Source of the DNA: Bryobacteraceae bacterium
Lineage (GTDB): Bacteria; Acidobacteriota; Terriglobia; Bryobacterales; Bryobacteraceae
Length of the DNA stretch: 64,000 nucleotides
Assembly: GCA_019748195.1 (NCBI GenBank)
Contig: JAIEPW010000043.1
Location: 62,001 to 126,000 of the forward strand
Reading direction: 5' to 3'
Positions 17,673 through 53,626 of the stretch are shown here, in pieces. Both the position numbers and the translations under genes were made by a program. The notes below the pieces were generated by a model. That model was given only the letters and a program-made list of their open reading frames with translations, was not told the DNA's origin and did no database searches. The first letter of the stretch is position 1; each line of letters begins with the position of its first letter.

Positions 17673-18632
17673 CTACACCCACCAGGGCGCCGCGGGTTGA
17701 TCGCGGATCACAATCGCATTCAGGAAGGCCGCCGCCTTGGTCAAACCCTCCTCGGGCGACATCAGCGTGTCCTCATGTTCGATGGAGAGCACGTAGTCGT
17801 AGCCGTACATCCGCAGCGTCGACACGAATTCCGTCCACCATTCATGGGAATGGCCATAACCGACCGTGCGGAAAATCCAGGTTCGATGGCGCTCGTCCGT
17901 GTACCGCTTGGTGTCCAGGACGCCCGTTCGGGGCAGATTCGCGGCGTAGATCTGCGTGTCCTTGGCGTGGCAATGGAAGATGGAGTCGCCCAGCACGCGG
18001 ATCGCGGCGATGGGGTCGATGCCCTGCCAGAACATGTGGCTGGGATCGTAGTTGGCGCCGAGAGCCGGTCCGGCGATCTCGCGCAGGCGCAGCAGTGTCT
18101 CCGGGCTGTAGGCGACAAATCCGGGATGCATCTCGATGGCGATCTTCACGCCGTGGTCGGAGGCGAACCTGGCCTGCCGCGTCCAGTACGGGGCCACTTT
18201 CTTCTCCCACTGCCAGTCCAGCACGTCCAGGTACTCGGGCGGCCAGGGGCAGGTGACCCAGTTCGGATACTTGGCCTTGTCGCTGTCACCCGGGCAACCG
18301 GAGAAATCGATCACCACCGGCACTTCCAGCTTCTCGGCCAGCAGGATCGTCTTGCGTGACGTTTCCTGAGCCCGCCGGGCAAGGTCCTTGTCCGGATGCA
18401 GCGGGTTGCCGTGGCAGCTCAGCGCGCTGATCTGAAATCCCGCGTCGGCGACGCGCTGCTTGAACTCCTTCAGCGCCCGCCGGTCAGCCAGCAAGTCCAG
18501 CTTCAGGTGGGTATCGCCGGGGTAATTGCCGGTCCCCAATTCCACGGTGGAGATCCCCAGCGCGCGCAGCTTTTCGAAAACGGTATCCAGCGGGAACCGC
18601 GCCAGCAAGGGTGTGAAAACGCCGACTCTCAT
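17673..18632 (-). CDS. sugar phosphate isomerase/epimerase (xylose isomerase-like TIM barrel)
   Basis: A 319-residue protein of the AP-endonuclease-2/xylose-isomerase-like TIM barrel family. I start it at the ATG at 18632 (MRVGVFTPLLARFPLDTV). Metal-site signatures include SALSCHGNPLHPD, IAIEMHPGFV, GANYDPSHMFWQGID, FHCHAKDTQI and LSIEHEDTLM, giving the Glu-Asp-His-Glu set of active isomerases and epimerases. Substrate unknown; relatives include inosose isomerases and D-tagatose epimerases. It is not linked to a transporter or kinase here, and it diverges from the sirtuin operon with only 43 bases between starts. Confidence 0.88.
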   Translation of the reverse strand: MRVGVFTPLLARFPLDTVFEKLRALGISTVELGTGNYPGDTHLKLDLLADRRALKEFKQRVADAGFQISALSCHGNPLHPDKDLARRAQETSRKTILLAEKLEVPVVIDFSGCPGDSDKAKYPNWVTCPWPPEYLDVLDWQWEKKVAPYWTRQARFASDHGVKIAIEMHPGFVAYSPETLLRLREIAGPALGANYDPSHMFWQGIDPIAAIRVLGDSIFHCHAKDTQIYAANLPRTGVLDTKRYTDERHRTWIFRTVGYGHSHEWWTEFVSTLRMYGYDYVLSIEHEDTLMSPEEGLTKAAAFLNAIVIRDQPAAPWWV

Positions 18633-18675
18633 AACGCGCCAGAATAGCACGCGGCCCGGCCGCTACAATGAAGAA

Positions 18676-39812: not shown

Positions 39813-41324
39813 TTAACGCACCTGCGGGAAGCCCAGATCCACCTTGCTGCCGGCCGGGTCCGGCCAGCGGCTGGTGACCACCTTGCCTCGCGTGTAGAAC
39901 TGAACGCCTTCGGGACCGTAAATGTGCAGGTCTCCGAAGAGGGAAGCCTTCCAACCGCCGAAGCTGTAGTAAGCCACCGGAACCGGAATGGGCACGTTGA
40001 TGCCGACCATGCCCGCTTCCACCTCGAACTGGAAGCGCCGGGCGGCGCCGCCGTCCCTGGTGAAGATGGCCACGCCGTTGCCGTAGGGGTTGGTGTTCAC
40101 CAGCCGGACCGCCTCCTCGTAAGTGTTCACGCGCACCACGCTGAGCACCGGGCCGAAGATCTCCTCGTCGTAACAGCGCATGCCCGGCTTCACTCCATCC
40201 AACAGGGAGGCGCCCAGGAAGAACCCGTCGCGCTCCGCGGCTGCCGCCTCGCGTCCATCCACCACGACCTGGGCGCCCTCCCCAGGAGCGCCGGCGATGT
40301 AGCCGGCAACGCGATCGCGATGCTCGCGCGTGATCAGCGGGCCGAGCTCATTGCCGTCCTCGTCGCCGGGGCCGATACGAATTTTGGGGATGCGCTCGCG
40401 AATGGCCTCGATCACGGGGTCGGCCGCGCTGCCCACCGCCACCAGCACCGAGATCGCCATGCAGCGTTCCCCGGCCGAGCCGTAGGCAGCCGAGACCGCG
40501 GCATCCGCCGCCATTCCGATATCGGCGTCGGGCAGCACCACCATGTGATTCTTGGCGCCGCCCAGCGCCTGGACGCGCTTGCCGTTGCGGGTCGCCGTTT
40601 CATAGATCGACCGCGCCACGGGCGTGGAGCCGACAAAGCTCACGGCCTTGACCTCGGGATGCTCCAGCAGCCGGTCCACGGCGGCCTTGTCGCCCTGAAT
40701 GATATTGAAGACGCCGCCGGGAATACCCGCCTGGTGGATCAGTTTGGCCAGGATCAGGCTGGCGGAAGGATCCCTCTCCGAGGGCTTGAGCACGAATGTG
40801 TTGCCGCAAGCGATCCCGGTCGCGATCATCCACATCGGCACCATCGCCGGGAAGTTGAAGGGAGTGATGCCGGCCACCACGCCGAGCGGCTGCCGGATCT
40901 GGTACACGTCCACGCCACCGCTGGCCTGCTCGGAGAAGCCGCCCTTGAGCAGGTTCGGAATACCGCAGGCGAACTCGATGTTCTCCAGCCCGCGGGCGAC
41001 CTCGCCCATGGCGTCGGGCAGCGTCTTGCCGTGCTCGGCGGTGATCGCTTCGGCGATCGCGCGGCGATTCTCGTGAACCAGTTGGCGAAGCTGGAACAGC
41101 AACTCCGCGCGGCGGGAAAGGGGCGTGGCCCGCCACTCCGGAAACGCCTTGGCCGCCGCCGCCACCGCCAGGTCGACTTCCTCCACGCTGGCGAACACTG
41201 TGTGCGCCCGAGGCTCGCCCGTGGCCGGGTTCCACACCACGCCGGATCGCCCGGACGACGATTCCACCGGCTTGCCGCCGATCCAATGGCTGATGCGCTT
41301 CACTGCGATACTGGAAGTGCTCAT
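39813..41324 (-). CDS. mmsA: CoA-acylating methylmalonate/malonate semialdehyde dehydrogenase
   Basis: A 503-residue aldehyde dehydrogenase that converts malonate semialdehyde to acetyl-CoA plus CO2 (or methylmalonate semialdehyde to propionyl-CoA) with NAD+ and CoA. The start at 41324 has GGGAGG five bases upstream. The catalytic cysteine is Cys288 (GSAGERCMAIS), and GGAKNHMVVLPDAD is the signature of this CoA-dependent branch, replacing the usual general-base glutamate motif. In inositol catabolism this is IolA, the last step. It is divergent from iolB with an operator between them. Confidence 0.93.
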   Translation of the reverse strand: MSTSSIAVKRISHWIGGKPVESSSGRSGVVWNPATGEPRAHTVFASVEEVDLAVAAAAKAFPEWRATPLSRRAELLFQLRQLVHENRRAIAEAITAEHGKTLPDAMGEVARGLENIEFACGIPNLLKGGFSEQASGGVDVYQIRQPLGVVAGITPFNFPAMVPMWMIATGIACGNTFVLKPSERDPSASLILAKLIHQAGIPGGVFNIIQGDKAAVDRLLEHPEVKAVSFVGSTPVARSIYETATRNGKRVQALGGAKNHMVVLPDADIGMAADAAVSAAYGSAGERCMAISVLVAVGSAADPVIEAIRERIPKIRIGPGDEDGNELGPLITREHRDRVAGYIAGAPGEGAQVVVDGREAAAAERDGFFLGASLLDGVKPGMRCYDEEIFGPVLSVVRVNTYEEAVRLVNTNPYGNGVAIFTRDGGAARRFQFEVEAGMVGINVPIPVPVAYYSFGGWKASLFGDLHIYGPEGVQFYTRGKVVTSRWPDPAGSKVDLGFPQVR

Positions 41325-41400
41325 GAAACCTCCCGGGCCGGACCGATTCGGTGTGCCGCCGCTACCTGAACTTATCACAGCGGAGCGTAGCCGCTGCTGC

Positions 41401-41430
41401 TTGACAGGTTTGCGAAGAGTATGGGATAAA
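41401..41430 (+). promoter_or_regulatory. sigma-70-like promoter of the iolB operon
   Basis: A consensus -35 TTGACA (41401-41406), an 18-base spacer and GATAAA (41425-41430) as -10. Transcription would start near 41437, exactly at the left edge of the palindromic operator, so a bound repressor would block initiation. Confidence 0.6.
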
Positions 41431-41436
41431 CGGCAG

Positions 41437-41450
41437 TGCAACCGTGTGCA
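41437..41450. promoter_or_regulatory. LacI-type operator, site 1 (iolB/mmsA)
   Basis: TGCAACCGTGTGCA matches the island consensus TGCACACGTGTGCA at 12 of 14 positions, keeping the central CG and both outer TGCA halves. It lies between divergent mmsA and iolB, at the predicted iolB transcription start. Central-CG palindromes of this kind are characteristic of LacI-family operators. Confidence 0.75.
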
Positions 41451-41462
41451 GGAGATTGCCCG

Positions 41463-42323
41463 TTGAGCTCACCGGCCCTGCTTTTCCGCCCCCAATTACC
41501 GGCCGCGAGCTCGGGACCGCTGCTCCGCGTCACACCGGAATCGGCCGGCTTTCAGTTCCTCACGTTTGAGGTCCGGCGCCTGGCCGCGGGCGAGCAATAC
41601 GCAGCGGAAACCGCCGGCAGCGAGCTCGCGATCGTGATGCTCGGCGGCGTTTGTTCCGTTCACTCGCGGGCGGGCGCCTGGCCGCGGGTCGGCAGACGCG
41701 AGAACGTCTTCGCCGGCATGCCTTATGCCGTGTATCTTCCACCCGGAACGGCGTACGAAATACGCGCCGATTCCCACTGCGAGTTCGCGTTATGCTCCTG
41801 TCCCGCGGAGGAAAGCTTCCCCGCGCGGTTGATTCGCCCGGCCGACGTGGAGATCGAGATCCGTGGGGGCGGAAACGCCACCCGGCAAATCAACAAGATC
41901 ATCCAACCGGAATTCCCGGCGCAGCGGCTGCTGATTGTCGAGGTTTATACCCCCAGCGGCAACTGGTCCAGCTATCCGCCCCACAAGCACGACGTGCATC
42001 AACCGCCCGGCGAAGTGGATCTGGAGGAAATCTACTACTACCGCATCGACCGGGCCGAGGGCTACGCGATCCAGCGCGTCTACACCAGGGACAAGCGCCT
42101 GGACGCCACGCTGACGGTGCGCGATGGCGAACTGGTTCTGATTCCGGAGGGCTATCATCCGGTGGCGGCGGCGCACGGCTACAACGTGTATTACCTGAAC
42201 GTGCTGGCGGGCTCGGCGCGCTCCATGGCCGCCAGCGACGACCCTGACTACGCCTGGGTGCGGCAGACATGGACGGACAAAGACCCCAGGGTTCCGGTGG
42301 TCCGTCCAGCGGAGGGGGAGTGA
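41463..42323 (+). CDS. iolB: 5-deoxy-glucuronate isomerase
   Basis: A 286-residue bicupin of the IolB family, which converts 5-deoxy-D-glucuronate to 2-deoxy-5-keto-D-gluconate in myo-inositol breakdown. I use the TTG at 41463, because AGGAGA stands seven bases before it; an upstream GTG at 41436 would lie in the operator. The metal site is seen as YPPHKHDVHQ with a following EEIYYYRI and VPxGYHP-type histidine (IPEGYHPVAAAHGYNVYYLN). Length is normal. First gene of the iolB-iolD-iolE-VOC operon. Confidence 0.93.
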   Translation: MSSPALLFRPQLPAASSGPLLRVTPESAGFQFLTFEVRRLAAGEQYAAETAGSELAIVMLGGVCSVHSRAGAWPRVGRRENVFAGMPYAVYLPPGTAYEIRADSHCEFALCSCPAEESFPARLIRPADVEIEIRGGGNATRQINKIIQPEFPAQRLLIVEVYTPSGNWSSYPPHKHDVHQPPGEVDLEEIYYYRIDRAEGYAIQRVYTRDKRLDATLTVRDGELVLIPEGYHPVAAAHGYNVYYLNVLAGSARSMAASDDPDYAWVRQTWTDKDPRVPVVRPAEGE

Positions 42324-44197
42324 GGCGCACGCGCAGGCTGACCATGTCCCAGGCGCTGGTCGCCTGGCTGAAAAATCAGCACGTGGAGCGCGACGGCAAA
42401 ACCAACCCGTTTTTCGCGGGGATGTGGGGCATCTTCGGCCATGGCTGCGTGGCGGGAGTGGGCCAGGCGCTGCAGCAGAACCTCGATTTTCCCTACTATT
42501 TGTGCCGCAATGAACAAGGCGCGGTGCACGCGGCCGCGGCCTTCGCCAAGGCGAGCCGGCGCATGCGAGCCTTCGCCTGCACATCGTCGGTCGGACCGGG
42601 CGCCACCAACATGATCACCGGCGCCGCGACGGCGACCATCAACCGGCTTCCGGTCCTGCTGCTGCCCGGCGACATTTTCGCGCGCCGCAACGTCGGCCCC
42701 GTACTGCAACAGCTCGAGTGGGAGCAGAGCCTGGACGTCAGCGTGAACGATGCCTTCCGGCCCGTCTCCCGCTATTGGGACCGGGTCAACCGCCCCGATC
42801 AGCTTCCCAGCGCGCTGGACGAGGCGATGCGAGTACTCACCTCGCCGGCCGAGACCGGAGCCGTGGTGCTGGCGCTGCCCCAGGACGTTCAGGCGGAGGC
42901 CTGGGAATACGACGAATCGCTCTTTCAGAAGCGCGTCTGGACCATCCCGCGCGCGACCGGAGATCCGGACCGGCTCCGCGAAGCAGCAGCGGCCGTCCGC
43001 TCCGCCGCCCGCCCGCTGATCATCGCCGGCGGCGGTGTCCTGTACAGCGAAGCGGAAGGGGCGCTGGCTGCCTTCGTCCAACAGACCGGAATTCCCGTGG
43101 CCGAAACGCAGGCGGGCAAGGGCTCGCTGGCCTACGATCACCGGCAATCGCTGGGCGCAATGGGCGTCACCGGGACGCCGGGAGCGAATCTCGCCGCGCG
43201 CGAGGCCGACCTGGTGATCGCCATCGGCACCCGCCTGGCCGACTTCACCACCGCGTCCAAGACCGCGTTCCAGAATCCCGGCGTTCGCTTCGTCAACATC
43301 AACGTGAATGAGCGGGACGCCCGCAAGCATGCCGGGATTCCGGTGGTGGCGGATGCGCGGGCGGCGCTCGCCTGGCTGGCCGAGGCTCTCGCCGGATACC
43401 GGGTCCCCGGCGAATACGCCGGTCGCACCCTTGCGTGGAAGACGAGCTGGGAGGGGGAGACGGACCGGCTGTTCGCCATCCGTCATGGATACCCCTTCAG
43501 CCAGAGCGAAGTAATCGGCGCGGTGTGGGAGTCTTCGCAGCCCGAGGACGTCGTCGTCTGCGCCGCGGGAAGCCTTCCGGGCGACCTGCATAAGCTGTGG
43601 CGCACACGCCGGCCCGGCGGATACCACATGGAGTACGGCTACTCGTGCATGGGATATGAGATTGCCGGAGGTCTCGGCGTCAAAATGGCCGATCCCACCC
43701 GCGAGGTCTGGGTCCTGGTGGGGGACGGCTCCTTCCTGATGATGTCGTCGGAGATCGTCACCTCGATCCAGGAGCGCTACCCGCTGCGCATCGTGTTGCT
43801 CGACAACCAGGGCTACTCGAGTATCGGGGGCTTGTCTCGCAGCCTCGGATCCTTGGGCTTCGGCACGGATTACCGGATGCGGAACCCGGCCAGCGGGCAA
43901 CTGGACGGGGATCGCCTGCCGGTGGACTTCGTCGCGCTGGCTTCCGGGATGGGAGCCCAGGCGATCCGCGTTAAAACGCACGAGGAGTTACGCAGGGCGC
44001 TGGCGGCGACACGCGGCGCGGACCGCACCTCCGTGATCGTTCTCGAAACCGACAAGGAAGCACGCGTGCCCGGCTACGAGTCCTGGTGGGATGTGCCCGT
44101 GGCCGAAGTATCGACAATGCCATCCGTGCGGGACGCACGGGCAGCGTATGAAGAATCCGTTCAGCGGGAGCGTGTCTTTCCCGCGGAGAAGAGCTAA
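42320..44197 (+). CDS. iolD: 3D-trihydroxycyclohexane-1,2-dione hydrolase
   Basis: A 625-residue thiamine-diphosphate enzyme that opens the ring of 3D-(3,5/4)-trihydroxycyclohexane-1,2-dione to 5-deoxy-glucuronate. It begins at GTG 42320 within the iolB stop, behind GGAGGGGG, which keeps the conserved N-terminal RLTMSQALV. The ThDP glutamate is in YLCRNEQGAVHAA and the pyrophosphate-metal motif is GDGSFL...LDNQGYSS. The FGHGCVAGVGQAL stretch is specific for IolD within the acetolactate-synthase superfamily. Full length. Confidence 0.95.
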   Translation: MRRTRRLTMSQALVAWLKNQHVERDGKTNPFFAGMWGIFGHGCVAGVGQALQQNLDFPYYLCRNEQGAVHAAAAFAKASRRMRAFACTSSVGPGATNMITGAATATINRLPVLLLPGDIFARRNVGPVLQQLEWEQSLDVSVNDAFRPVSRYWDRVNRPDQLPSALDEAMRVLTSPAETGAVVLALPQDVQAEAWEYDESLFQKRVWTIPRATGDPDRLREAAAAVRSAARPLIIAGGGVLYSEAEGALAAFVQQTGIPVAETQAGKGSLAYDHRQSLGAMGVTGTPGANLAAREADLVIAIGTRLADFTTASKTAFQNPGVRFVNINVNERDARKHAGIPVVADARAALAWLAEALAGYRVPGEYAGRTLAWKTSWEGETDRLFAIRHGYPFSQSEVIGAVWESSQPEDVVVCAAGSLPGDLHKLWRTRRPGGYHMEYGYSCMGYEIAGGLGVKMADPTREVWVLVGDGSFLMMSSEIVTSIQERYPLRIVLLDNQGYSSIGGLSRSLGSLGFGTDYRMRNPASGQLDGDRLPVDFVALASGMGAQAIRVKTHEELRRALAATRGADRTSVIVLETDKEARVPGYESWWDVPVAEVSTMPSVRDARAAYEESVQRERVFPAEKS

Positions 44198-45094
44198 GTG
44201 CCGATTCGAATCGCCACCGCCCCGGTAAGCTGGGGCATTCTGGAATTTGCGGGTTGGGGCTGGCCTCGCGGCTACCGGGAGATCCTGGACGAGATGCAGC
44301 AGGCCGGCTATGCCGGAACCGAGCTGGGACCGTATGGTTTCCTGCCCACGGATCCGGCGGAGCTGAAAGCCGAGTTGAGCCGCAGGAACATGCCTCTGCT
44401 CGGGGCGTTCGTGCCGCTGCCCCTGACGGACTCAGCCCTCCATGAACGAGGCTTAAACGATGCGTTGGACGTAGCGAAGCTGCTCTCGGCGGCGGGCGCT
44501 GAGTTCCTGGTGCTTGCCGACCGCATGGACGAGGCGCGCATGAGGATTGCGGGAAGCGTCACGGAGGCCGACGGCATGAGCGATGCGCAGTGGAAGTCCG
44601 CCGCGGCGCTGGTGACGCGAATCGCGGAGGCCGCGGCCATCCTGGGGCTGCGCACGGTGTTTCATCATCACGGAGGCACCTTCGTCGAGACCCCGGCCGA
44701 GCTCGATCGCCTTCTGGACTCGATCGAAGCCTCGTTGGTCGGGGTCTGCCTGGACACCGGGCACTACTGGTACGGGGGCGGGGATCCGGTCCGGTTCGCG
44801 CAATCGCATGCCCGGCGCATCTGGCATTTGCACCTGAAGGATGTTCGCCAGGATGTTCTGGATCGCGTGCGGCGGGAGAAAATCCCGTACATGGACGCGG
44901 TCCGCGCCGGGCTCTTCTGCGCGCTGGGAGACGGAGCAGTGGACATTGCCGGCGTCACCCGGGAGTTGGAGAAACGGGGGTTCGACGGCTGGGCGGTGTT
45001 CGAACAGGATATTGATGCCGCGTTGGGGAACTCGGACCCGCTGGCCAGCGCGATCCGGAGCCGGGAGTATCTGAAGTCGGCCGCGGGGTTGTAG
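44198..45094 (+). CDS. iolE: inosose dehydratase-like TIM barrel protein
   Basis: A 298-residue xylose-isomerase-like TIM barrel starting at GTG 44198, directly after the iolD TAA. The opening IATAPVSWGILEFAGWGWPR is typical of IolE, which dehydrates 2-keto-myo-inositol to the dione used by IolD. Metal ligands are in TVFHHHGGTFVETP, GVCLDTGHYWYGGGDP, IWHLHLKDV and the late FEQDID. Residues about 224-235 (KIPYMDAVRAGLFCALGDG) also fit IolE. Position behind iolD supports the call. Confidence 0.9.
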   Translation: MPIRIATAPVSWGILEFAGWGWPRGYREILDEMQQAGYAGTELGPYGFLPTDPAELKAELSRRNMPLLGAFVPLPLTDSALHERGLNDALDVAKLLSAAGAEFLVLADRMDEARMRIAGSVTEADGMSDAQWKSAAALVTRIAEAAAILGLRTVFHHHGGTFVETPAELDRLLDSIEASLVGVCLDTGHYWYGGGDPVRFAQSHARRIWHLHLKDVRQDVLDRVRREKIPYMDAVRAGLFCALGDGAVDIAGVTRELEKRGFDGWAVFEQDIDAALGNSDPLASAIRSREYLKSAAGL

Positions 45095-45138
45095 CCAGGC
45101 CTGCGTGAGAGAACAATCCGGTGACGGACGGAAGTTAC

Positions 45139-45552
45139 ATGAGCGGACTCGAGATCACCGGGATCGCCCCCTTCTTCATCGTGCGGGATGTCCCTGCGTC
45201 CTTGGCTTTCTATCGCCACCGCCTGGGATTCGAGATCGCCTTTCCAGGCCCCGAACCGGGGGACATTTTCTTCGGCATCGTGCAGCGCGGCGCGGCAATG
45301 GTAATGCTCAAGTCCATCGGGGTGGAGCCGCGGCCAAACTGCTTGCGGGATATCGGCGAAGGCATAGCGCGTTGGGACGCCTATCCGCACGTCCCGGATC
45401 CCGATGCGCTGGCGGCGGAGTTTTTGGCCCGCGGCGCGAAGTTTTCAGAACCTCTCAGGGATACTGACGACGGGCTGCGCGGCTTCGAAGTCCAGGATGC
45501 GGATGGCTACGTGTTGTTTTTCGGCCGTCCGGTGGCCGAAACGGCGCCGTAG
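45139..45552 (+). CDS. VOC superfamily (glyoxalase/bleomycin-resistance-like) protein
   Basis: A 137-residue vicinal-oxygen-chelate protein with two beta-alpha-beta-beta-beta modules (IAPFFIVRDVPASLAFYRHR at the start, GFEVQDADGYVLFFGRP at the end). I use ATG 45139; a GTG six codons upstream is possible. Of the usual metal ligands only the last glutamate (GFEVQDADGY) is clear, and the first histidine is replaced by Pro/Phe, so it may bind rather than convert its ligand. Last gene of the iol operon; it ends directly against the convergent transaldolase gene. Confidence 0.82.
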   Translation: MSGLEITGIAPFFIVRDVPASLAFYRHRLGFEIAFPGPEPGDIFFGIVQRGAAMVMLKSIGVEPRPNCLRDIGEGIARWDAYPHVPDPDALAAEFLARGAKFSEPLRDTDDGLRGFEVQDADGYVLFFGRPVAETAP

Positions 45553-46659
45553 CTACCCCTTTTCCAGGTCCGGATCCGGCAACAGCAGGTCCCGCACGAC
45601 GGCGTCCAGGTCATGGCACGCCCCCACGAACTGCCGCAGGGTTCGGCGGGTCGGGGGATACGCGCCGAATTCGGCCACGCTCAACCCTTCCTCCAGATAC
45701 GCCCGGCGAAAATCGGGGAACTTGCGCAGCAGTTCCTCCACTACCCGCGCATCGACCGGATCGGCGATCCGCGGCCGCACGGTGATATCGCTCGAGTTGA
45801 AACGCACCTGCCAGGCGTGGGGCGGGGAGATCACCACGTCGCCACCGATCAGCTCGCTCCAGTGCATGTGATTGCGAAACGCGGCGGAGAGGAGGCGCAG
45901 CCGGTAGCCGCGCGCGCGAAACAGCTCGTACGTTTTCTTGAATACGGCCACCCCGGCCCATTCCAGGTAGCCGGGATCGGTGATGATGTTGTCCCTCTCG
46001 GCGCAGACTTTCAGCCAGTCATCCAGGCGGCCGGCCATGATGGTACAGACCGGGCCCATGCGGGAGATGTCCTGTCCCGCCTGCTCGCGGCGGCGCAAGC
46101 CGCGCTCCACCGCTTCGGCTACCGCGACGCATTGGGGCAGCGTGAAACAGACGGTCGCGTTGATGCTGATCCCGCGCGATGTGGCTTCCTCGATGGCGGC
46201 GATGCCGGCCGGCGTCACCGGAATTTTCACGATCATGTTGGGAGCAAGGTCCGCGAAGCGCACCGCCTGCTCCACGATCTCCGCCGCGCTGCGATATTTG
46301 CGCGGGTCGGTCTGGATGGAGAGCCGCCCGTTGCGGCCCCTCTCCGCTTCGAACACCGGCAGCAGAAGGCGGGACGCGCTGACGGAGATCTCTTCGACGA
46401 TGCGCCAGGCGATCCGGTCCTCGTCCCATTCCGGCTGCTCCCGGATCAAAGCCAGGATCCGCTCCCGCCAGCGCGCCATCTCCTTCTTCAGCACGCCGAG
46501 CACGATCACGGGATTGCACGTGGCGCCGACCGCGCCGTGATCCATCGAGTAGCGCAGCTCTTCCAGCGACGCGGAATCGTTCCACAGGCAAGTGGGGGTG
46601 GTCTGCGTCATCTCCCGGAGCGGACTCCGCGGCGTCTGCTTGCTTTCAGTCGGAATCAC
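45553..46659 (-). CDS. transaldolase-family protein with Gln at the Glu96 position
   Basis: A 368-residue class I aldolase-fold protein starting at GTG 46659 (GGGAGG five bases upstream). Aligned by eye with E. coli TalB it keeps the Schiff-base lysine (Lys145, IVKIPVTPAG), Asn167 and Thr169 (ISINATVCF), the TCNP turn, and phosphate-binding arginines Arg211 (MAGRLDDW) and Arg262 (AAFRN). The acid-base glutamate of TalB (Glu96) is Gln116 (SIQTDPRKY), as in fructose-6-phosphate aldolase, and TalB Phe178 is Met208. It is the last gene of the DegT-creatininase-creatininase operon in an inositol island without iolC or iolJ. The substrate may be 2-deoxy-5-keto-gluconate (inference). Confidence 0.88.
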   Translation of the reverse strand: MIPTESKQTPRSPLREMTQTTPTCLWNDSASLEELRYSMDHGAVGATCNPVIVLGVLKKEMARWRERILALIREQPEWDEDRIAWRIVEEISVSASRLLLPVFEAERGRNGRLSIQTDPRKYRSAAEIVEQAVRFADLAPNMIVKIPVTPAGIAAIEEATSRGISINATVCFTLPQCVAVAEAVERGLRRREQAGQDISRMGPVCTIMAGRLDDWLKVCAERDNIITDPGYLEWAGVAVFKKTYELFRARGYRLRLLSAAFRNHMHWSELIGGDVVISPPHAWQVRFNSSDITVRPRIADPVDARVVEELLRKFPDFRRAYLEEGLSVAEFGAYPPTRRTLRQFVGACHDLDAVVRDLLLPDPDLEKG

Positions 46660-46672
46660 GGGCGCCTCCCGG

Positions 46673-47533
46673 CTACCGGAGTTGCCGGTCGTAGTTCTCT
46701 TTCTGAATCTTAGCTGTTGTTTCGTCCGCTTTCACGTTGCGGATCGCCTCCACCAGCAGCCGGGTGACGTGGGCGTTGGAGAATCGGCCTTCTTCGGCGC
46801 TCGCGGCCGCGCCGACGCCCGCGTAGTGGTTCGGGAATCGCGCGTACCAGGAGGTCGCCGTCCAGATGTCGGGCAGGTGAGCGAGGCGCTTCTGATCGCT
46901 GCTGTCCTCCCGCGGCGCGCGTTCCAGCTTCACGATGTCCGGCCGGATGGCCATGATGCGGGAAGTCTCCTGCTCGCCCGCGTGCTCGTCGCCGGCCAGA
47001 GGAGTCTTGCGGAAGGACTGGCTCTGGAACGTTTTCAGATACTCAGGATCGGGGGCCGGATCGAACAGGTACACCACGTAATCGCGCCTCTTTTCGAGCT
47101 GCGTCTGCACCCAGAAGCGCAGCCAGTGGGGATTGCCGCCGTGCGTGCTGTAGATCAGGATTTTCTTGAAACCGTTGCGGGCGATCTCATCCAAGGTGGC
47201 TTGCAGCAATTCGGAGATCAGGTGGGGAGGGAGGGCGACGGTCCCTTCGGCGTACTTCGCCTCGTAGATCTGGCCCCAGTAGTATTCCGGAAAAACAACG
47301 GCGTACTCCTGGCGAGCGGCTTCCTTGGCGCGATGCTGCGCGCCGATCAGATCCGCGCCGATGGGCAGGTGCGGGCCGTGTTTCTCCAGGATGCCGATCG
47401 GCAGTATGCACGTCCCCTTGGACAGCTCGATCGCCTTTTTCCAGTCGGAAGCGACCAACTCATCCCAGCGGACGGGGAGAGGCTGCGCCAGCGCGCAAGC
47501 GGCGAGCAGGGGCGGCAGGACGAGTCTCCACAT
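46673..47533 (-). CDS. exported creatininase-family amidohydrolase, copy 2
   Basis: A 286-residue creatininase-superfamily protein with a signal peptide (MWRLVLPPLLAACALAQPLP). The dinuclear metal motifs are intact: ILEKHGPHLPIGADL, STHGGNPHWLRF and DEHAGEQETS. Cytoplasmic relatives hydrolyse creatinine, cyclic amides or formamides (creatininase, MftE, ArfB). The export signal and an extra C-terminal stretch of about 60 residues set this branch apart. It is a tandem paralogue of the next gene upstream, sharing most of its sequence (for example PVRWDELVASDWKKAIELSK). Substrate unknown. Confidence 0.88.
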   Translation of the reverse strand: MWRLVLPPLLAACALAQPLPVRWDELVASDWKKAIELSKGTCILPIGILEKHGPHLPIGADLIGAQHRAKEAARQEYAVVFPEYYWGQIYEAKYAEGTVALPPHLISELLQATLDEIARNGFKKILIYSTHGGNPHWLRFWVQTQLEKRRDYVVYLFDPAPDPEYLKTFQSQSFRKTPLAGDEHAGEQETSRIMAIRPDIVKLERAPREDSSDQKRLAHLPDIWTATSWYARFPNHYAGVGAAASAEEGRFSNAHVTRLLVEAIRNVKADETTAKIQKENYDRQLR

Positions 47534-47544
47534 GACGGTTCTCC

Positions 47545-48402
47545 CTATTTCAACTGCCGGTCGTAGTTTTCCTTCTGGACCTTAGGCGTGACTTCGTCGT
47601 CCTTGACGGCGCGCAGCGTTTTCGCCAGCAGGCTGATGCTGCGTTCGAGCAGGACGCGGCCCTGTTCGGCGGTCGCGGCGCCGCCCACTCCCGCGTAGTG
47701 ATTGGGGAAACGGGCATACCAACTGGTGGCGGTCCAGAGGTTGGGAAGGTGGGCCAGACGCTTCTGATCGCTGCTATCCTCGCTCGCGGCGCGGTCGAGC
47801 TTCACCAGTTCCGGACGCATCGCCAGCAGCCCGGAGGTTTCCCGCTCGCCGCCGTGCTCATCGCCCGCCAGCGGAGTCTTGCGCATCTTCGTGTATTTCT
47901 CGATCCACTCCGGATCGGGCTGCGGATCGTAGTAGTACACGACGTAATCGCGGCGCAATTCGAGCTGCGACTGCACGAAGAAGCGCAGCCAATGCGGATT
48001 GCCCCCGTGCGTGCTGTAAATCAGGATCTTCTTGAAGCCGTTGCGGGCAATCTCGTCCAGCGTGGCCTGCAGCACTTCGGAGATCAGGCGGGGAGGCAGC
48101 GCGATGGTTCCCTCGGCGTACTTGGCCTCATAGATCTGGCCGAAATAATACTCCGGGAAGACCACCGCGTACTCCCGCTTGGCTACTGCCTTGGCGATGA
48201 ACTGCGCGTACAGCAGGTCCGAGCCGACGGGAGCATGCGGTCCGTGCTTCTCCAGGATCGCGATCGGCAGGATGCAGGTGCCCTTGGAAAGCTCGATCGC
48301 CTTCTTCCAGTCCGAGGCGACCAGTTCGTCCCAGCGCACCGGGAGGTCCTGCGCGGCGGCAGCCGCGGCGATCATGGTCAGACAGAGATAGCGGTGGAAC
48401 AA
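47545..48402 (-). CDS. exported creatininase-family amidohydrolase, copy 1
   Basis: A 285-residue paralogue of the gene downstream, with its own signal peptide (MFHRYLCLTMIAAAAAAQ) and intact metal motifs (ILEKHGPHAPVGSDL, STHGGNPHWLRF, DEHGGERETS). The start is TTG at 48402, ten bases after the DegT stop, behind GAGGAGG. Differences from copy 2 cluster around the metal loops (LPIGADL against APVGSDL) and the Asp-Pro loop after strand five, which suggests that the two copies differ in substrate or form a heteromer. Confidence 0.88.
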   Translation of the reverse strand: MFHRYLCLTMIAAAAAAQDLPVRWDELVASDWKKAIELSKGTCILPIAILEKHGPHAPVGSDLLYAQFIAKAVAKREYAVVFPEYYFGQIYEAKYAEGTIALPPRLISEVLQATLDEIARNGFKKILIYSTHGGNPHWLRFFVQSQLELRRDYVVYYYDPQPDPEWIEKYTKMRKTPLAGDEHGGERETSGLLAMRPELVKLDRAASEDSSDQKRLAHLPNLWTATSWYARFPNHYAGVGGAATAEQGRVLLERSISLLAKTLRAVKDDEVTPKVQKENYDRQLK

Positions 48403-48412
48403 GGCAGCCTCC

Positions 48413-49720
48413 TCAGCCCCTGGCGGCCCGGATCAAGGAATCCTTGTCCGCCAGGACCTTTTCGAATGCGTCGGCGTAATATCTCATCAGTTCCAGGTCC
48501 TGCCCGGCAAGCGGAGCCGACTGGGAACCGATCACCAGGGAGTTTTCGAGCAGCTTCGTGGTTGCCGGATAACTCTCCTCGCGGTACCGGACCGGAGAGT
48601 TGTGACAGCTCCAGGGGCAGCCTTTACCGTATCCGTTCTGCTGCTGAAACAGAATCTGCGACGGCACCGGGGTCACCTGCCAAAGCACTGCCTCCACGCC
48701 TTCCTGGCGAAGCGCCCGCAGCACGGCATTGCGGAACCGGCGGGGGTCCAGGCCGGCTTCCAGGCGTTCCGGATGCAGCCGCACCCGATACTTGTGGAAC
48801 ACGCTGGTGCGATCCGCCGGAACCGCGGGCGGCGTCACCAGTTCGAGTCCGGAAAGCCGCGACGTCAGGTACCCGGCGTTGCGCTGCGCGTTGCGGGTGA
48901 ACTCGGGCAGCCGCGCCAATTGCGCCCGTCCCACGGCCGCGGTGAGCGCCGTCATGCGATACATCCAACCCATCATCACGGCGTTGTAGTCGCGCATGTC
49001 GTCCAGCGGGCGATTCGGATCGGCGCCCGCCAGCGACGTTTCCGCCGCTTCCTCGCCAAACTGCCGGACGCAGTCGGCGCGCTTGTGCAGCGCCGGGTCA
49101 TCGGTGACGAGCAACCCGCCCTCCCCGGCGGACAAATTCTTGCTGCTTTGCACGCTGAACGCTCCCATGTGTCCGATGGTTCCCGCGTTGCGGCCCTTGT
49201 AGGTGGCGCCGTGCGCCTGCGCGGCGTCCTCGATCACGATCAGGCCATGCTTGCGGGCGATCGCCATGATCTCGTCCATGTCGGCGGGAAGTCCGTGGAT
49301 GTGCACCGGGATCAGCGCGCGGGTGCGGGGCGTGATTCGCCGCTCGATGTCCGCCGGGCTGATATTGAAGGTCGCCGGATCGATATCGGCGAACACGGGG
49401 ACGGCATTGTGATGGAGCACCGCCAGCGCGGACGCGAGGAAGGTGAAGGCCGAGGTGATGACTTCATCGCCCGGACCCAGGCCGGCGGCCGCTACCGCCA
49501 TGTGCAGCGCCGCGGTGCCGCTGTTGGCGGTGAGGCAGTGGCGCGATCCGATGTAGGCGGCGAATTCCCGCTCGAAGGCGCGGATTTCGGGAGCCAGAGA
49601 GCCGGAAAGGACGCCGCCGTCGAGCACGCGCATCACGGCCTCGCGCTCCGCTTCGCCCAGGATCGGCCATTGCCGGGTGATTCCCTCGGGCACGACCGGG
49701 CTGGTAGTCGGGTTGGACAT
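48413..49720 (-). CDS. DegT/DnrJ/EryC1/StrS family PLP aminotransferase
   Basis: A 435-residue sugar/cyclitol aminotransferase. The start at 49720 has GGAGGAGG upstream. PLP-binding residues are Asp165 (IVIEDAAQAHGA) and Lys194 (SSKNLSAGEGG); ANSGTAALHMA binds the phosphate. The C-terminal QQQNGYGKGCPWSC stretch and the length above 420 are like scyllo-inosose aminotransferases (StsC type) more than nucleotide-sugar enzymes of about 370 residues. It leads a four-gene operon ending in the transaldolase, controlled by a perfect palindromic operator. An aminocyclitol substrate fits the inositol genes nearby but is inference. Confidence 0.9.
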   Translation of the reverse strand: MSNPTTSPVVPEGITRQWPILGEAEREAVMRVLDGGVLSGSLAPEIRAFEREFAAYIGSRHCLTANSGTAALHMAVAAAGLGPGDEVITSAFTFLASALAVLHHNAVPVFADIDPATFNISPADIERRITPRTRALIPVHIHGLPADMDEIMAIARKHGLIVIEDAAQAHGATYKGRNAGTIGHMGAFSVQSSKNLSAGEGGLLVTDDPALHKRADCVRQFGEEAAETSLAGADPNRPLDDMRDYNAVMMGWMYRMTALTAAVGRAQLARLPEFTRNAQRNAGYLTSRLSGLELVTPPAVPADRTSVFHKYRVRLHPERLEAGLDPRRFRNAVLRALRQEGVEAVLWQVTPVPSQILFQQQNGYGKGCPWSCHNSPVRYREESYPATTKLLENSLVIGSQSAPLAGQDLELMRYYADAFEKVLADKDSLIRAARG

Positions 49721-49739
49721 GGGCCTCCTCCGGGTCCAC

Positions 49740-49753
49740 TGCACACGTGTGCA
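49740..49753. promoter_or_regulatory. LacI-type operator, site 2 (DegT operon / regulator)
   Basis: TGCACACGTGTGCA, a perfect 14-base palindrome, lies 20 bases upstream of the DegT start and about 100 bases upstream of the divergent LacI-family gene. It overlaps the first transcribed bases of the predicted DegT promoter, so binding would block it, and autoregulation of the regulator is plausible. Confidence 0.85.
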
Positions 49754-49764
49754 AGGGACTTCTT

Positions 49765-49793
49765 ATACTAACCGCCATGAACTTCCAAGTCAA
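49765..49793 (-). promoter_or_regulatory. sigma-70-like promoter of the DegT operon
   Basis: On the minus strand a -35 TTGACT (plus-strand 49788-49793), a 17-base spacer and a -10 TAGTAT (plus-strand 49765-49770). The expected start of transcription is just before the operator at 49740-49753. Confidence 0.6.
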
Positions 49794-49850
49794 TACTCGC
49801 GCCGCCAGACCACGTTGACGGGCCATCCCCTGCTTGTTACCCTGAATGAG

Positions 49851-50864
49851 GTGCGCCAAAGCCTTTCGATTAAGGACGTTGCCCGAATTGCAAACGTGTC
49901 GCACTCCACCGTTTCCCGGGCTTTGCGCGACAGCCCCCTCGTCAACCCCGAAACCGCCGCGCGCATCAAGAAGATTGCCCTCGAATCCAGCTACCGCGCC
50001 AGCGCCGTGGCCCGCAGCCTGGCCACCAGCAAGACCCACACGCTGGGAGTGGTAGTGGCCACCGTCGCCGATCCGTTTATCGCCGAAGTGATCAGCGGCA
50101 TCGAGGCGGCGGCGCGGCAGCGAGGTTATTCCGTATTTCTCGCCAATTCCGACGGCGTGGCGGACCGCGAAACGTCCGTGGTGGAATCTTTCGAGGAGCG
50201 TCGCGTGGAGGGAATTCTCGTGCTTGCGTCCCGGGTAGGCTCGTCTTACCGCACCCTGCTGGAAAAAACGAGCATACCGATCGTTTTGATCAACAATTAC
50301 AAGTTCGGCGATTGCGCTTATTCGGTGGATATTGACAACGTTCCCGCCAGCCGGGAGGCAACGCGGCATCTGATCGGTTTGGGTCACCGGCGAATCGCTT
50401 ACTTGGGAGACCGTTTTGGATTCAACTCCGACACCGAGCGATTCAGCGGATACCGGCAGGAGCTCGCGGCGGCGGATATCGCTTTTCGCCCCGAATTCGT
50501 CGTCCACGGAGACGGGACGCCGCCGGGCGGTGAAGCGGCGGTGCAGCAACTGATGCAGCTTCCCGGCCGCCCGACCGCGGTGTTCTGCTATGACGATATG
50601 ACCGCGCTGGGCGCGCTGCGCGGCATTCGAGCCGCTGGCCTGCGGGTGCCGGAGGACGTCTCGGTGGTGGGCTTCGACGATCTCCTGATCGCGTCCTACG
50701 TGGAGCCCGCGCTCACCACTATCCGGCAGCCGAAGGAACACATGGGAACACTGGCCACGGAAATGATTCTCAACCTGCTCTCGGGGGAAAAAGGGGAGGC
50801 GAACGTCAAGGTGGCGGGCGAGCTGATTGTCCGCAAGTCGGCCTGCCCGCCCGCTGTCCCCTAG
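49851..50864 (+). CDS. LacI family transcriptional regulator of the catabolic island
   Basis: A 337-residue LacI/GalR protein with the N-terminal helix-turn-helix and hinge (SIKDVARIANVSHSTVSRAL, about 5-25, then VARSLATSKTHTLGVVV) and a periplasmic-binding-like sensor domain ending in VSVVGFDDLLIASYVEPALTTI. I take GTG 49851; an alternative TTG lies at 49815. A weak TTGACG (49815) and TACCCT (49838) pair would start transcription at about the GTG, so the message could be leaderless. It is the only LacI-type gene in the window and is surrounded by the palindromes, so it is the likely binder. Effector unknown. Confidence 0.9.
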   Translation: MRQSLSIKDVARIANVSHSTVSRALRDSPLVNPETAARIKKIALESSYRASAVARSLATSKTHTLGVVVATVADPFIAEVISGIEAAARQRGYSVFLANSDGVADRETSVVESFEERRVEGILVLASRVGSSYRTLLEKTSIPIVLINNYKFGDCAYSVDIDNVPASREATRHLIGLGHRRIAYLGDRFGFNSDTERFSGYRQELAAADIAFRPEFVVHGDGTPPGGEAAVQQLMQLPGRPTAVFCYDDMTALGALRGIRAAGLRVPEDVSVVGFDDLLIASYVEPALTTIRQPKEHMGTLATEMILNLLSGEKGEANVKVAGELIVRKSACPPAVP

Positions 50865-52301
50865 TTATCGTGTCCGGATCGCCCGGCCCGGGTAGACGCC
50901 ATCCAGCAGCTTGCCATCACGCAGCACGAAGCTCCCTTCCACCAGAACGTGCCGGATACCCGTGGAAGGCTGCGCTGCGTTTTCGAAGGTGGCTTTGTCC
51001 AGGACAGTGTCCGGATCGAAAACGGTGATGTCGGCGTCGGCGCCGGGGCGCAGGCGGCCTTTGTTGCGCATGGCCGGAACGGACGTCTCCAATCGCTGCG
51101 CCGGCATGAGCGTCATCTTGCGGATCGCGTCCATCAGGGGCAGCATTTTCCGATCCCGGGAATACAGCCCGAGCACGCGCGCGAACGTGCCGGCGCTTCG
51201 CGGATGGCCCTTGCCGCCGGCGAGCCTGCCGTCGCTGGCGATCATGACCATCGGATGCGCGAGCCCGAGGCGTAACGCCTCCTCGGGCAGCGTATGGCTG
51301 ATCACGGCGCCGCCCGTCTTGCGATACCGGGCGAACGTCTCCGCTGTCAGGCGCTCTCCGGTTGCTACCCACTGCAGGTCGCCATACTTGTTGCCGGTGC
51401 GCTTCTCCCAATCGCCGTCGAACAGCGCCGACTCGATGCGAGTCGCCGAGGCCGTGTACGGATACATCTCGGTGGTGATGTCGAGCCCCCGTTTCCGCGC
51501 GCCTTCGATCATCTCCAGACAGGTGGCGGTGTTACGCCCGCCGACGCTGGTGATATGGACCGCGTGTAAAGCCGCGCCGGTGATCAGCGCATTGGCGATC
51601 ACCTCCTGCAGCGCGGCGATCACCCCCTCGCCCCGCATGTGAACGAACACCGGCGCCTTGTATTCGGCGGCCAGACGGAACAATCTCAGAATCTCCTCGC
51701 GCGGAGCCGCGGGGACGTAGGCGATTCCGAAGCCGACGCCCACGGCCCCATCCTCCAGCCCGCGACGGACCTGCTGGATGATCGAGAGCGTTTCTTCCGG
51801 CGAGGCGGCGCGGTGGGCTGCTTCATCGCGGGGCAGGAAGTCGCCTGTGTCCTTCATCACCAGCATCCGGGCGGGAACATGGCCGGAGCTCGCCCCGAAG
51901 TGGATACGCGCCTTGCCTTCCCGCTGCCGGTACCATTCCGCGGCGCCCGCCACGCCGATCTCCAGCTCGAGCGCCGAGGTGACTCCGTCGTGCGCCTTAT
52001 ACCGGTAGTTCTCGTCATCCTGGCCGTGCGAATGCAGATCGATGAACCCGGGCGCGATCGCCAGCCCCTCGGCGTCGACCACGATCTTCCCCCGCAGGGG
52101 CGTCGCGGAGACAGCGGCGATCCTGCGGCCCTGAATGCCGACGCTGCGAACAGCGTCCAGCCCGGACTCCGGATCGAGGACGCGGCCGTTCGCCAGCACG
52201 ACATCATAGGTCTGGGCGCTCAGGCACGCGCCGCAAGTCAGCAACAACACAATGGATCGCGTCATCCGCGCGGATATCTCCATTCTCGAAAGGGATTTCA
52301 T
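50865..52301 (-). CDS. exported N-acyl-D-amino-acid deacylase-like amidohydrolase
   Basis: A 478-residue metal-dependent amidohydrolase of the D-aminoacylase/dihydroorotase type. It starts at ATG 52301, overlapping the permease stop (ATGA); an ATG at 52265 would give a tighter signal peptide (MTRSIVLLLTCGACLSAQ). Motifs: PGFIDLHSHGQDD (first metal histidines), VFVHMRGEG, HAVHITSVGGRN, and MIASDGRLAG with the catalytic aspartate, then the composite beta-domain end (GADADITVFDPDTV). The enzyme should free D-amino acids or amines from N-acyl compounds in the periplasm. Coupled to an APC permease. Confidence 0.88.
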   Translation of the reverse strand: MKSLSRMEISARMTRSIVLLLTCGACLSAQTYDVVLANGRVLDPESGLDAVRSVGIQGRRIAAVSATPLRGKIVVDAEGLAIAPGFIDLHSHGQDDENYRYKAHDGVTSALELEIGVAGAAEWYRQREGKARIHFGASSGHVPARMLVMKDTGDFLPRDEAAHRAASPEETLSIIQQVRRGLEDGAVGVGFGIAYVPAAPREEILRLFRLAAEYKAPVFVHMRGEGVIAALQEVIANALITGAALHAVHITSVGGRNTATCLEMIEGARKRGLDITTEMYPYTASATRIESALFDGDWEKRTGNKYGDLQWVATGERLTAETFARYRKTGGAVISHTLPEEALRLGLAHPMVMIASDGRLAGGKGHPRSAGTFARVLGLYSRDRKMLPLMDAIRKMTLMPAQRLETSVPAMRNKGRLRPGADADITVFDPDTVLDKATFENAAQPSTGIRHVLVEGSFVLRDGKLLDGVYPGRAIRTR

Positions 52302-53626
52302 GCAGCCACCCCGGGCGTGCGATTCCAGGTCCCGCGGATCGCGCCATAGGTGATTCCCGCCGCCAACCACGCCGCGCCGGCGATTTTCGCTCCCATGTTC
52401 AAGTTCGCCCAGATATAGAAACAAACCAGAAATCCGAGCAGCGGTGGAACGGCATTGGCCGCGGACCAGTCCCGCTGCCGCAGGCAATAGTGACGAAACG
52501 CGGCCAGGTTCACTCCCATGAAGGCGATAAACGCGCCGAAATTCAGCATCTCGACTCCCAACTGGTAGCTGAGGAACAGCGGACAGAGCAGGGTCAGCGC
52601 ACCGCTGAACAGCACGCTGTTGCGCGGCGTGCCGTTGGCCGTCAACTGGGCGAAAAATCTCTTCGGGATGGTGTTGTCCCGGCCCATGCCGAACAGCAAC
52701 CGGGCGGCCGCCATTTGCGCTCCGGAGCCCGATCCGATGGTCGCGACAAGCAACGCCAGGTTCAGCAGGGCGAACAGCAGCGGCCCGCCCGCCCGCCCCG
52801 CGACATGGACAAAGGCGGTGTCCACATCGGGGTAGCTGGTGAAGTCCGGCCAGATCAACTGGGCGGCGTACACCTCCAGCGCGGCCAGCGTCCCGGTGAT
52901 CAGGCACACCAGAACCGTGGCCCGCATCACGTTGCGCCGGGGGTTCTCCACTTCCTCGGACAGCGTCGAAACGCCGTCAAAGCCGATGTACGTCAACACG
53001 GATACGGCCGTACCGGTGAACAGCGTCCCCACCGCGAAGGTCGCGGGGTCATAGAAAGGCCGGCTGAGCGCGGCGGAAGTCAGCGGCTGCCCCAACAGGT
53101 AGCGGACCGCGTACCCAAGAAACACCAGCACCACCGCGCCCAGTCCGTAGGCGAGCCAGCGGTTCGTGCGCGCGGAGCTCTCCACGCGCCGCAAGTTCAG
53201 CGCGGTGAACAGCACCGCGAATCCAAGCGCGAAGACGGGGTAGGGAACCGCCGGGAAGAAGTTGCCGGCTGCCTTGGCGCACCAGATGGTGGAGATGACC
53301 GGGTTTAACAGATAGTCGAGCGTGATGCTCCACCCCGTGACATAGCCGAGGGTGGGATGCAACGCGTTGCCGACGTATGTGTAAGCGGATCCGGCGCTCG
53401 GATAAGCCCGCGCCATGCGGCCGTAAGACACCGCCGTGAACAGCATTGCGACCATGGCGATCAGCAGCGCCGTCACCACGTGCCCGCGCGCTTCCTGGCT
53501 CACCACGCCGAAAATCGGCATGGGAGCCGTCGGCTGGACAATGACGATGCCGTAAAGGACCAGGTCCTGAAGGCGGAGCACGCGGCGAAGCTGGGGGGTA
53601 GGCGGGCCTGCCGCGAGTTCAGGCAA
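52298..53626 (-). CDS. APC superfamily amino acid/polyamine permease
   Basis: A 442-residue transporter with 12 helices, starting at TTG 53626 behind GGAG. The first helix carries IVIVQPTAPMPIFGVVS, the region unwound for substrate binding in APC proteins, and FTAVSYGRMARAYPSAGSAYTY is the conserved second and third helix. It probably takes up the amino compound released by the exported enzymes of the island. Overlaps the amidohydrolase gene; divergent from the DSD1-like gene across operator site 3. Confidence 0.92.
   Translation of the reverse strand: MPELAAGPPTPQLRRVLRLQDLVLYGIVIVQPTAPMPIFGVVSQEARGHVVTALLIAMVAMLFTAVSYGRMARAYPSAGSAYTYVGNALHPTLGYVTGWSITLDYLLNPVISTIWCAKAAGNFFPAVPYPVFALGFAVLFTALNLRRVESSARTNRWLAYGLGAVVLVFLGYAVRYLLGQPLTSAALSRPFYDPATFAVGTLFTGTAVSVLTYIGFDGVSTLSEEVENPRRNVMRATVLVCLITGTLAALEVYAAQLIWPDFTSYPDVDTAFVHVAGRAGGPLLFALLNLALLVATIGSGSGAQMAAARLLFGMGRDNTIPKRFFAQLTANGTPRNSVLFSGALTLLCPLFLSYQLGVEMLNFGAFIAFMGVNLAAFRHYCLRQRDWSAANAVPPLLGFLVCFYIWANLNMGAKIAGAAWLAAGITYGAIRGTWNRTPGVAA

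Follow-up and report, generated by a model that had tools for sequence, protein, structure and literature searches.

Gene content points to a transaldolase in place of the kinase and aldolase of inositol breakdown in many soil bacteria

Introduction

Soil is rich in inositol and phytate. The canonical myo-inositol pathway, of the B. subtilis and S. enterica type, proceeds through IolG, IolE, IolD, IolB, IolC, IolJ and IolA, and IolB, IolD, an IolE-like protein and MmsA are shared with the gene cluster described here. A large survey of inositol use treats iolC as an essential core gene, requires three of the genes iolB, iolC, iolD and iolE, and explains the absence of the fourth by genome incompleteness, errors of assembly or frameshifts (PMC9430895). 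In sulfo-TAL sulfoglycolysis (SqvA/SftT), a 2-ketose that bears an acidic tail and no phosphate is cleaved by a transaldolase, and the C3 unit is passed to glyceraldehyde-3-phosphate (GAP), yielding fructose-6-phosphate (PMC9594981).

The open-access literature yielded no description of a transaldolase that takes part in inositol breakdown, subscription papers and preprints being outside the scope of the search, and PMC12130570, PMC4866288 and PMC7736159 proved unrelated; the preliminary description of the present locus had likewise known of no inositol pathway of such a kind. Comparison of gene content points to many soil bacteria with inositol-type genes carrying a special transaldolase in place of the kinase and the aldolase, and hence to a putative, undescribed version of the pathway that is kinase-free.

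Genes of the window

The window, a stretch of 64,000 nucleotides from a Bryobacteraceae bacterium, belongs to a genome that is 99.67% complete. The following genes were assigned, the divergent transaldolase being referred to as TAL:

39813..41441 (-), MmsA/IolA, CoA-acylating (methyl)malonate semialdehyde dehydrogenase (TIGR01722 709 bits, over the cut-off)
41436..42323 (+), IolB, 5-deoxy-glucuronate isomerase, forming 2-deoxy-5-keto-gluconate (DKG) (TIGR04378 347 bits, cut-off 205)
42269..44197 (+), IolD, trihydroxycyclohexane-1,2-dione acylhydrolase (TIGR04377 903 bits, cut-off 715)
44198..45094 (+), IolE-like inosose dehydratase (TIGR04379 217 bits, under the cut-off of 290; PF01261)
45121..45552 (+), glyoxalase-fold protein, last in the iolBDE run (PF00903)
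45553..46659 (-), TAL, divergent transaldolase, proposed 2-deoxy-5-keto-gluconate : glyceraldehyde-3-phosphate dihydroxyacetone transferase (PF00923, catalytic residues, AF2 model)
46673..47533 (-), creatininase-family hydrolase, 13 bp upstream of TAL (PF02633 148 bits; PDB creatininases, E 3e-11)
47545..48402 (-), second creatininase-family hydrolase (PF02633 149 bits)
48413..49744 (-), DegT-family aminotransferase, a possible aminocyclitol transaminase (PF01041 325 bits)
49677..50864 (+), LacI-family regulator, divergent from the DegT-TAL run (PF00356, PF13377)
52298..53626 (-), amino acid permease-family transporter, a possible importer whose association is inferred (PF00324/PF13520)

The preliminary description had named iolB, iolD, iolE and the MmsA gene; IolB, IolD and MmsA stand over their cut-offs, and the remaining gene can be called no more than IolE-like. 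The profile match of MmsA starts at residue 51, so the real start codon probably lies further inside the frame. The TAL gene and iolB-iolD-iolE are convergent, and TAL lies outside the iolBDE transcript, a point missed in the preliminary description; it forms the end of a separate minus-strand run of DegT, the two creatininase-like genes and TAL, with gaps of 10-13 bp. An IolN-like function for the two creatininase-family genes was rejected, as they score only 40 and 44 bits with the IolN model, whose cut-off is 245. Away from the iol cluster, at 17673-18650 (-), lies the gene of a further PF01261 protein, a second xylose isomerase-like TIM barrel.

The absence of iolC that had been remarked upon for the window extends to the whole genome, where a search with TIGR04382 reached 105.7 bits at best against a cut-off of 300. 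Sub-threshold stretches numbered eight, across six contigs. No protein of family PF22649, the usual partner of IolC in this order, was found in the genome either. An IolJ of the class II FBA type (PF01116) would in any case depend on the product of IolC. An iolG over cut-off was also lacking (best score 127.6 against 355 bits), which had escaped earlier notice; the iolG cut-off was passed in all seven other TAL genomes of the order given to the same search. Two further TAL_FSA proteins, scoring 297 and 182 bits, are encoded in the genome, so that the housekeeping role of a transaldolase can be covered there. The ordinary transaldolase of this genome (C112:52349-53377) lies inside an open frame of 930 residues and may be of the transaldolase/phosphoglucose isomerase fusion type, the fusion being conjectural.

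Sequence and predicted structure of TAL

The 368 amino acid product of TAL (45553-46659, minus strand) matched the TAL_FSA family (PF00923) with 128.1 bits and so met the curated cut-off of 27. Scores fell below the cut-offs of the NCBIfam transaldolase equivalogs TIGR00876 (80 against 234 bits) and TIGR00874 (46 against 396), of the subfamily model PRK03343 (107 against 367), and of the fructose-6-phosphate aldolase (FSA) model TIGR00875 (47 against 246), FSA having a length of about 220 amino acids compared with 368. As TAL is far under the cut-off of every listed model, it is considered a divergent member of the family.

For the residue check, TAL was aligned to E. coli TalB, FsaA and 88 rows of its own clade, among which are at least three duplicates; the tree was built from 90 rows, of which 87 are different. 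Locus L141, whose ORF was called at 22 amino acids, was left out of both. Lys145 aligns with the Schiff-base lysine of TalB, K132, and Arg211 and Arg262 align with R181 and R228; the position of E96 is taken by Gln116, FsaA also having Gln, and that of F178 by Met208. These five residues, correctly named in the preliminary description, are identical in 88 of 88 rows. The same complete conservation was found for Asp28 and Asn49 (equivalents of Asp17 and Asn35), Asn167 and Thr169, and for Ala260, previously overlooked, which replaces the phosphate-site Ser226 of TalB. Met208 is also the residue found in every row at the position of Tyr131 of FSA, and the FSA-type Gln59 is kept as Gln. By spacing, S176 of TalB corresponds to Thr206, an alignment gap having shifted S176. 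The numbers and roles of the TalB and FSA residues, Tyr131 included, are presumed here, the alignment being a test of positions only.

An AF2 model of TAL (51 sequences) had a mean pLDDT of 94.5. The nearest solved fold was the transaldolase 3clm (Z 39.8, rmsd 1.9 over 322), followed by 3r5e (Z 38.3). Other matches were to TalB 1onr (Z 32.3), the sulfofructose transaldolase 8bc3 (Z 22.3) and FSA 1l6w (Z 20.7).

Distribution within the order

The order was represented by 120 genomes. Members of the TAL clade (56-100% identity) were present in 12 of them, and iolB, iolC and iolD passed their curated cut-offs in 17, 12 and 32 respectively. Among the 17 iolB genomes, TAL occurred in none of the nine with iolC and in seven of the eight without it (Fisher 4.1e-4). 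The 19 iolD genomes of the window's family divided into ten with iolC, eight with TAL, one with neither and none with both (Fisher 1.2e-4). These tests take no account of shared ancestry. An association of the clade with iolB and iolD in the absence of iolC, which the preliminary description had raised, is borne out by these counts and by the exchange of genes within genus g15 described below.

The family PF22649 was detected in 12 of the 120 genomes, exactly the 12 with iolC, and in the iolC-type operons inspected a PF22649 (Cgl0159-like) protein directly follows iolC. It is presumably the DKG-phosphate aldolase. A search for Cgl0159 in connection with inositol gave no match in the open-access literature, so this role rests on the place of the gene beside iolC.

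Both operon types occur in genus g15. The gene order is LacI-iolB-iolC-PF22649-iolD-iolE-iolG in G063 and LacI-iolB-TAL-iolD-mmsA-iolE-iolG-transporter in G043 and G066. Judged on gene content, TAL is the only candidate in the latter two genomes for the missing step of an otherwise complete inositol operon. A further operon, in G110, reads iolB-TAL-iolD-iolE-iolG, and genus g14 is also mixed, with G117 of the iolC type and G082 of the TAL type. Just upstream of the TAL-type operon of G066 (L093:10255-13275) lie a microcompartment shell-domain gene (PF00936) and genes of the DHDPS, Exo_endo_phos and L-PSP families; gene families matching those of this region are found in G043 as well.

G001, an iolB genome of 81% completeness, lacks TAL as well as an iolC over cut-off and has a sub-threshold PfkB of 144 bits; it was set aside as a counter-example, its contig ending soon after iolD. 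G079, with iolG and iolD in one stretch and no iolB match, was set aside likewise. In another family, 12 genomes (G002, G005, G007 and nine more) have iolD over cut-off and no match to iolB, iolC or the TAL clade at the same thresholds; an IolE-like gene lies near iolD in G005, and in G019 iolD stands alone within 18 kb.

Distribution beyond the order

Among 84,980 species genomes scanned, 501 relatives of TAL were found, and the best 80 of the 501 were kept. Apart from Acidobacteriota, their sources are bins labelled Chloroflexi, Dormiibacterota, Spirochaetaceae, Planctomycetota, Verrucomicrobiota and Deltaproteobacteria. Metagenome bins make up many of the sources, and it is not excluded that individual contigs were assigned to the wrong bin.

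Within the best 80 of 501 loci (tblastn, E 1e-20), an IolG-like neighbour was found in 42, IolB in 41, IolD in 41, an IolE-like protein in 36 and MmsA in 23, and neither IolC nor PF22649 in any; as a positive control, the same IolC and PF22649 queries matched 11 of 11 control loci. The IolG and IolE counts take in any homologue at that threshold, down to about 25% identity. At E 1e-3, two weak IolC-like (PfkB) stretches appeared among the 80, at L149 and L151. IolB or IolD was present in 47 of these loci and at least one of IolB, IolD, IolE and IolG in 55. No iol or MmsA neighbour was seen in 22, some of them because the locus is short: six of the 80 are shorter than 4,500 bases and 15 shorter than 7,500. 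With the best 80 restricted to loci of at least 15 kb, IolB or IolD was present in 28 of 37 and neither in nine.

The commonest neighbour families over 87 loci, obtained without preselected queries, were IolD, IolG, LacI, IolB, IolE and MmsA. The MmsA gene is directly upstream of TAL in seven loci, and in the Chloroflexi locus L139 mmsA, TAL, iolD and iolB are consecutive on one strand. Apart from a PfkB kinase inside the iol cluster of L149, no known sugar kinase or aldolase was met among the representatives of 18 neighbour families scanned (one for each family, rarer families being outside the scan). Five Chloroflexi loci (L119, L138, L148, L157 and L178) encode a protein of 600-640 residues with a PEP-utiliser mobile domain (PF00391; representative 613 amino acids), together with molybdopterin dehydrogenase genes and without IolB or IolD.

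At the level of whole genomes, counts were made for the genomes of the first 50 of the best 80 loci, four of which (L114, L140, L143 and L150) match genomes of the order set (G096, G087, G111 and G100). An iolB over cut-off was present in 43 of the 50 and an iolC over cut-off in two, G164 and G169, where a classic iolC operon stands on a contig other than that of TAL. PfkB matches at E 1e-40 or better occur in a further seven, with 143.7-186.4 bits against the iolC cut-off of 300.

The TAL clade is not tied to iol genes everywhere. Four of the 12 TAL genomes of the order (G087, G100, G078 and G098) have no iolB or iolD over cut-off; in each of them an SDR gene adjoins TAL, and three have an MFS gene as well. 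Together with L167, which also has an SDR gene, they form one nested subclade of the midpoint-rooted 90-row tree, in which some supports are weak, and the iol-linked rows are scattered over its remaining parts. For this tree the G038 outgroup protein was trimmed by 60 residues and the G098 ORF to an internal Met. The nested position of these SDR-linked members without iolB and iolD suggests that the clade has been recruited to another job there, which is the probable interpretation; they may draw on another source of DKG or on another ketose. SDR-neighbour loci are L086, L087, L088, L090, L167 and, on a side branch, L130.

A sister clade (36-38% identity; G016, G053, G038, G067 and G118, loci L095-L099) was not counted as the same enzyme, since a fused pyruvate dehydrogenase-like E1 gene is present in all five loci and E2/E3-type genes in several. 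One aligned member of it has the same Gln and Met.

Proposed reaction and alternatives

The IolB product, 2-deoxy-5-keto-D-gluconate, is a 2-ketose when read from C6, and its C3 and C4 have the D-fructose configuration, as follows from the name of the compound. A transaldolase could therefore cleave it into a bound dihydroxyacetone unit and malonate semialdehyde, and the chemistry put forward to this effect in the preliminary description is sound on the same ground. In the proposed reaction Lys145 would form a Schiff base with C5 of DKG, the C3-C4 bond would be cut and malonate semialdehyde would pass to MmsA. Transfer of the bound dihydroxyacetone unit to GAP would then give fructose-6-phosphate, with no sugar-acid kinase needed at the DKG step.

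It is probable that TAL is a dedicated transaldolase of this type, replacing IolC, the DKG kinase, and the partner DKG-phosphate aldolase, by transfer from DKG to GAP with release of malonate semialdehyde. The gene content, the near-exclusion with iolC, the exchange of operon slots, the catalytic residues and the predicted fold form the basis for this proposal. No assay has been made, and the substrate, the role of GAP as acceptor and the supply from inositol or an aminocyclitol are inferred. The substitution of a transaldolase for kinase and aldolase, the central suggestion of the preliminary description, thus has the support of comparative genomics and amounts to a strong genomic prediction without biochemical proof.

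TAL might instead be an FSA-like aldolase acting on the same substrate, the Schiff base being hydrolysed to give free dihydroxyacetone and malonate semialdehyde. Such an enzyme would be in keeping with the FSA-type Gln116 for Glu96 in all 88 rows, which counts mildly against transfer, with the replacement of the phosphate-site serine by Ala260, and with the dihydroxyacetone kinase (PF02733) that was found in 10 of 44 TAL genomes. The kinase was nevertheless absent from the window genome and from the other 34 of the 44, in a search that took in 36 of the 50 TAL genomes and 17 genomes of the order and covered only this sink for dihydroxyacetone. Since, moreover, the Tyr position of FSA is Met throughout and the 350-residue fold is that of a full-length transaldolase, matching 3clm far more closely than FSA, transfer is the more likely of the two reactions, although only weakly separated from plain cleavage, and the FSA-like alternative is considered unlikely. 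Another view would make TAL an ordinary pentose-phosphate transaldolase that travels with the iol genes, DKG being processed by an unrecognised PfkB kinase and an aldolase. The sub-threshold PfkB stretches on six contigs of the window genome could supply the former, as could the PfkB of the L149 cluster, and four genomes of the order have TAL without iolD. TAL is also the sole PF00923 protein in G043 and G066, and the iolC-bearing G063 of the same genus has none, so a second, pentose-phosphate role is not excluded there. Exclusion with iolC is, however, not expected of a housekeeping enzyme, and within that one genus TAL alone occupies the iolC-PF22649 slot of an operon that is otherwise complete; for these reasons we regard this explanation as decidedly improbable. 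The two other TAL_FSA proteins of the window genome and the lack of a known sugar kinase or aldolase among the scanned recurrent neighbour families also speak against it.

The nested SDR-linked subclade (G087, G100, G078, G098 and L167), with its four genomes of the order lacking iolB and iolD over cut-off, leaves room for a main substrate other than DKG, a ketose belonging to some pathway for ring sugars or sugar acids, and G164 and G169 keep a full iolC pathway elsewhere in their genomes. With iol-linked rows across the rest of the tree around that subclade (some supports being weak), iolB in 43 of the 50 TAL genomes and the malonate semialdehyde enzyme MmsA directly upstream of TAL in seven loci, there is very little to recommend a different main substrate, and transfer of the dihydroxyacetone unit from DKG to GAP is retained as the preferred function.

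Entry substrate in the window genome

In the absence of an iolG over cut-off, the pathway of the window genome may start from an aminocyclitol instead of inositol. The region 46673-53626, with DegT, two creatininase-family hydrolases, an amidohydrolase and an amino acid permease, looks like a module for an aminocyclitol or a nitrogen-containing ring sugar. The DegT family occurs in eight TAL loci including the window, downstream of TAL in the other seven (L102, L106, L111, L117, L126, L128 and L136) and within 200 bp of it in six of these. Each of the seven also carries a gene from one or the other of two amino acid permease families, and in six a Gfo/Idh/MocA family gene is present as well, as judged from one scanned representative per family. 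Two permease families of the Pfam of the window transporter were present in 12 and seven other TAL loci, again with one representative scanned for each. PDB matches of the window DegT include inosose aminotransferases, the best match being an aminotransferase of unnamed substrate. An aminocyclitol as the starting substrate is only weakly inferred.

A wider scheme is offered tentatively and as no more than possible: a widespread kinase-free ring-sugar pathway in soil bacteria, with the DKG:GAP transaldolase as its last member, fed in the window genome by an aminocyclitol through the permease and the DegT transaminase instead of inositol dehydrogenase. The first and the late textbook steps would then both be replaced.

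Comparison with known systems

If true, the transaldolase route would explain some of the iolC gaps in surveys of the type of PMC9430895. With it, the range of inositol users may come to include Acidobacteriota, Chloroflexota/Dormibacterota and others. We know of only one natural case, sulfoglycolysis, in which a transaldolase replaces a kinase-aldolase pair; the present one would be the second.

Under the proposed scheme, the canonical pathway and the TAL-type pathway would have the same intermediates as far as DKG and the same product, malonate semialdehyde. They differ in that the window genome is without iolC over cut-off and without PF22649, that TAL-type operons have a transaldolase in the slot of these genes, and that DKG would remain unphosphorylated. 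The transaldolases of the C. glutamicum and N. gonorrhoeae type (3r5e and 3clm) match TAL over the full length of the fold (Z 38-40), the region of the Schiff-base lysine being aligned, but identity is only 23-26% and TAL is under the TIGR00876 and PRK03343 cut-offs. Compared with the active site of TalB, Glu is replaced by Gln, Phe by Met and Ser by Ala. The Gln at the Glu96 position is shared with FSA, from which TAL is set apart by the lack of a Tyr131 equivalent, by its length of 368 as opposed to 220 residues and by a weaker fold match. The nearest known logic is that of sulfo-TAL sulfoglycolysis, with another substrate and in another pathway (PMC9594981); BmSF-TAL belongs to the short type that forms decamers (Z 22.3 over 196 residues), whereas the transaldolase of the window is of the 350-residue type.
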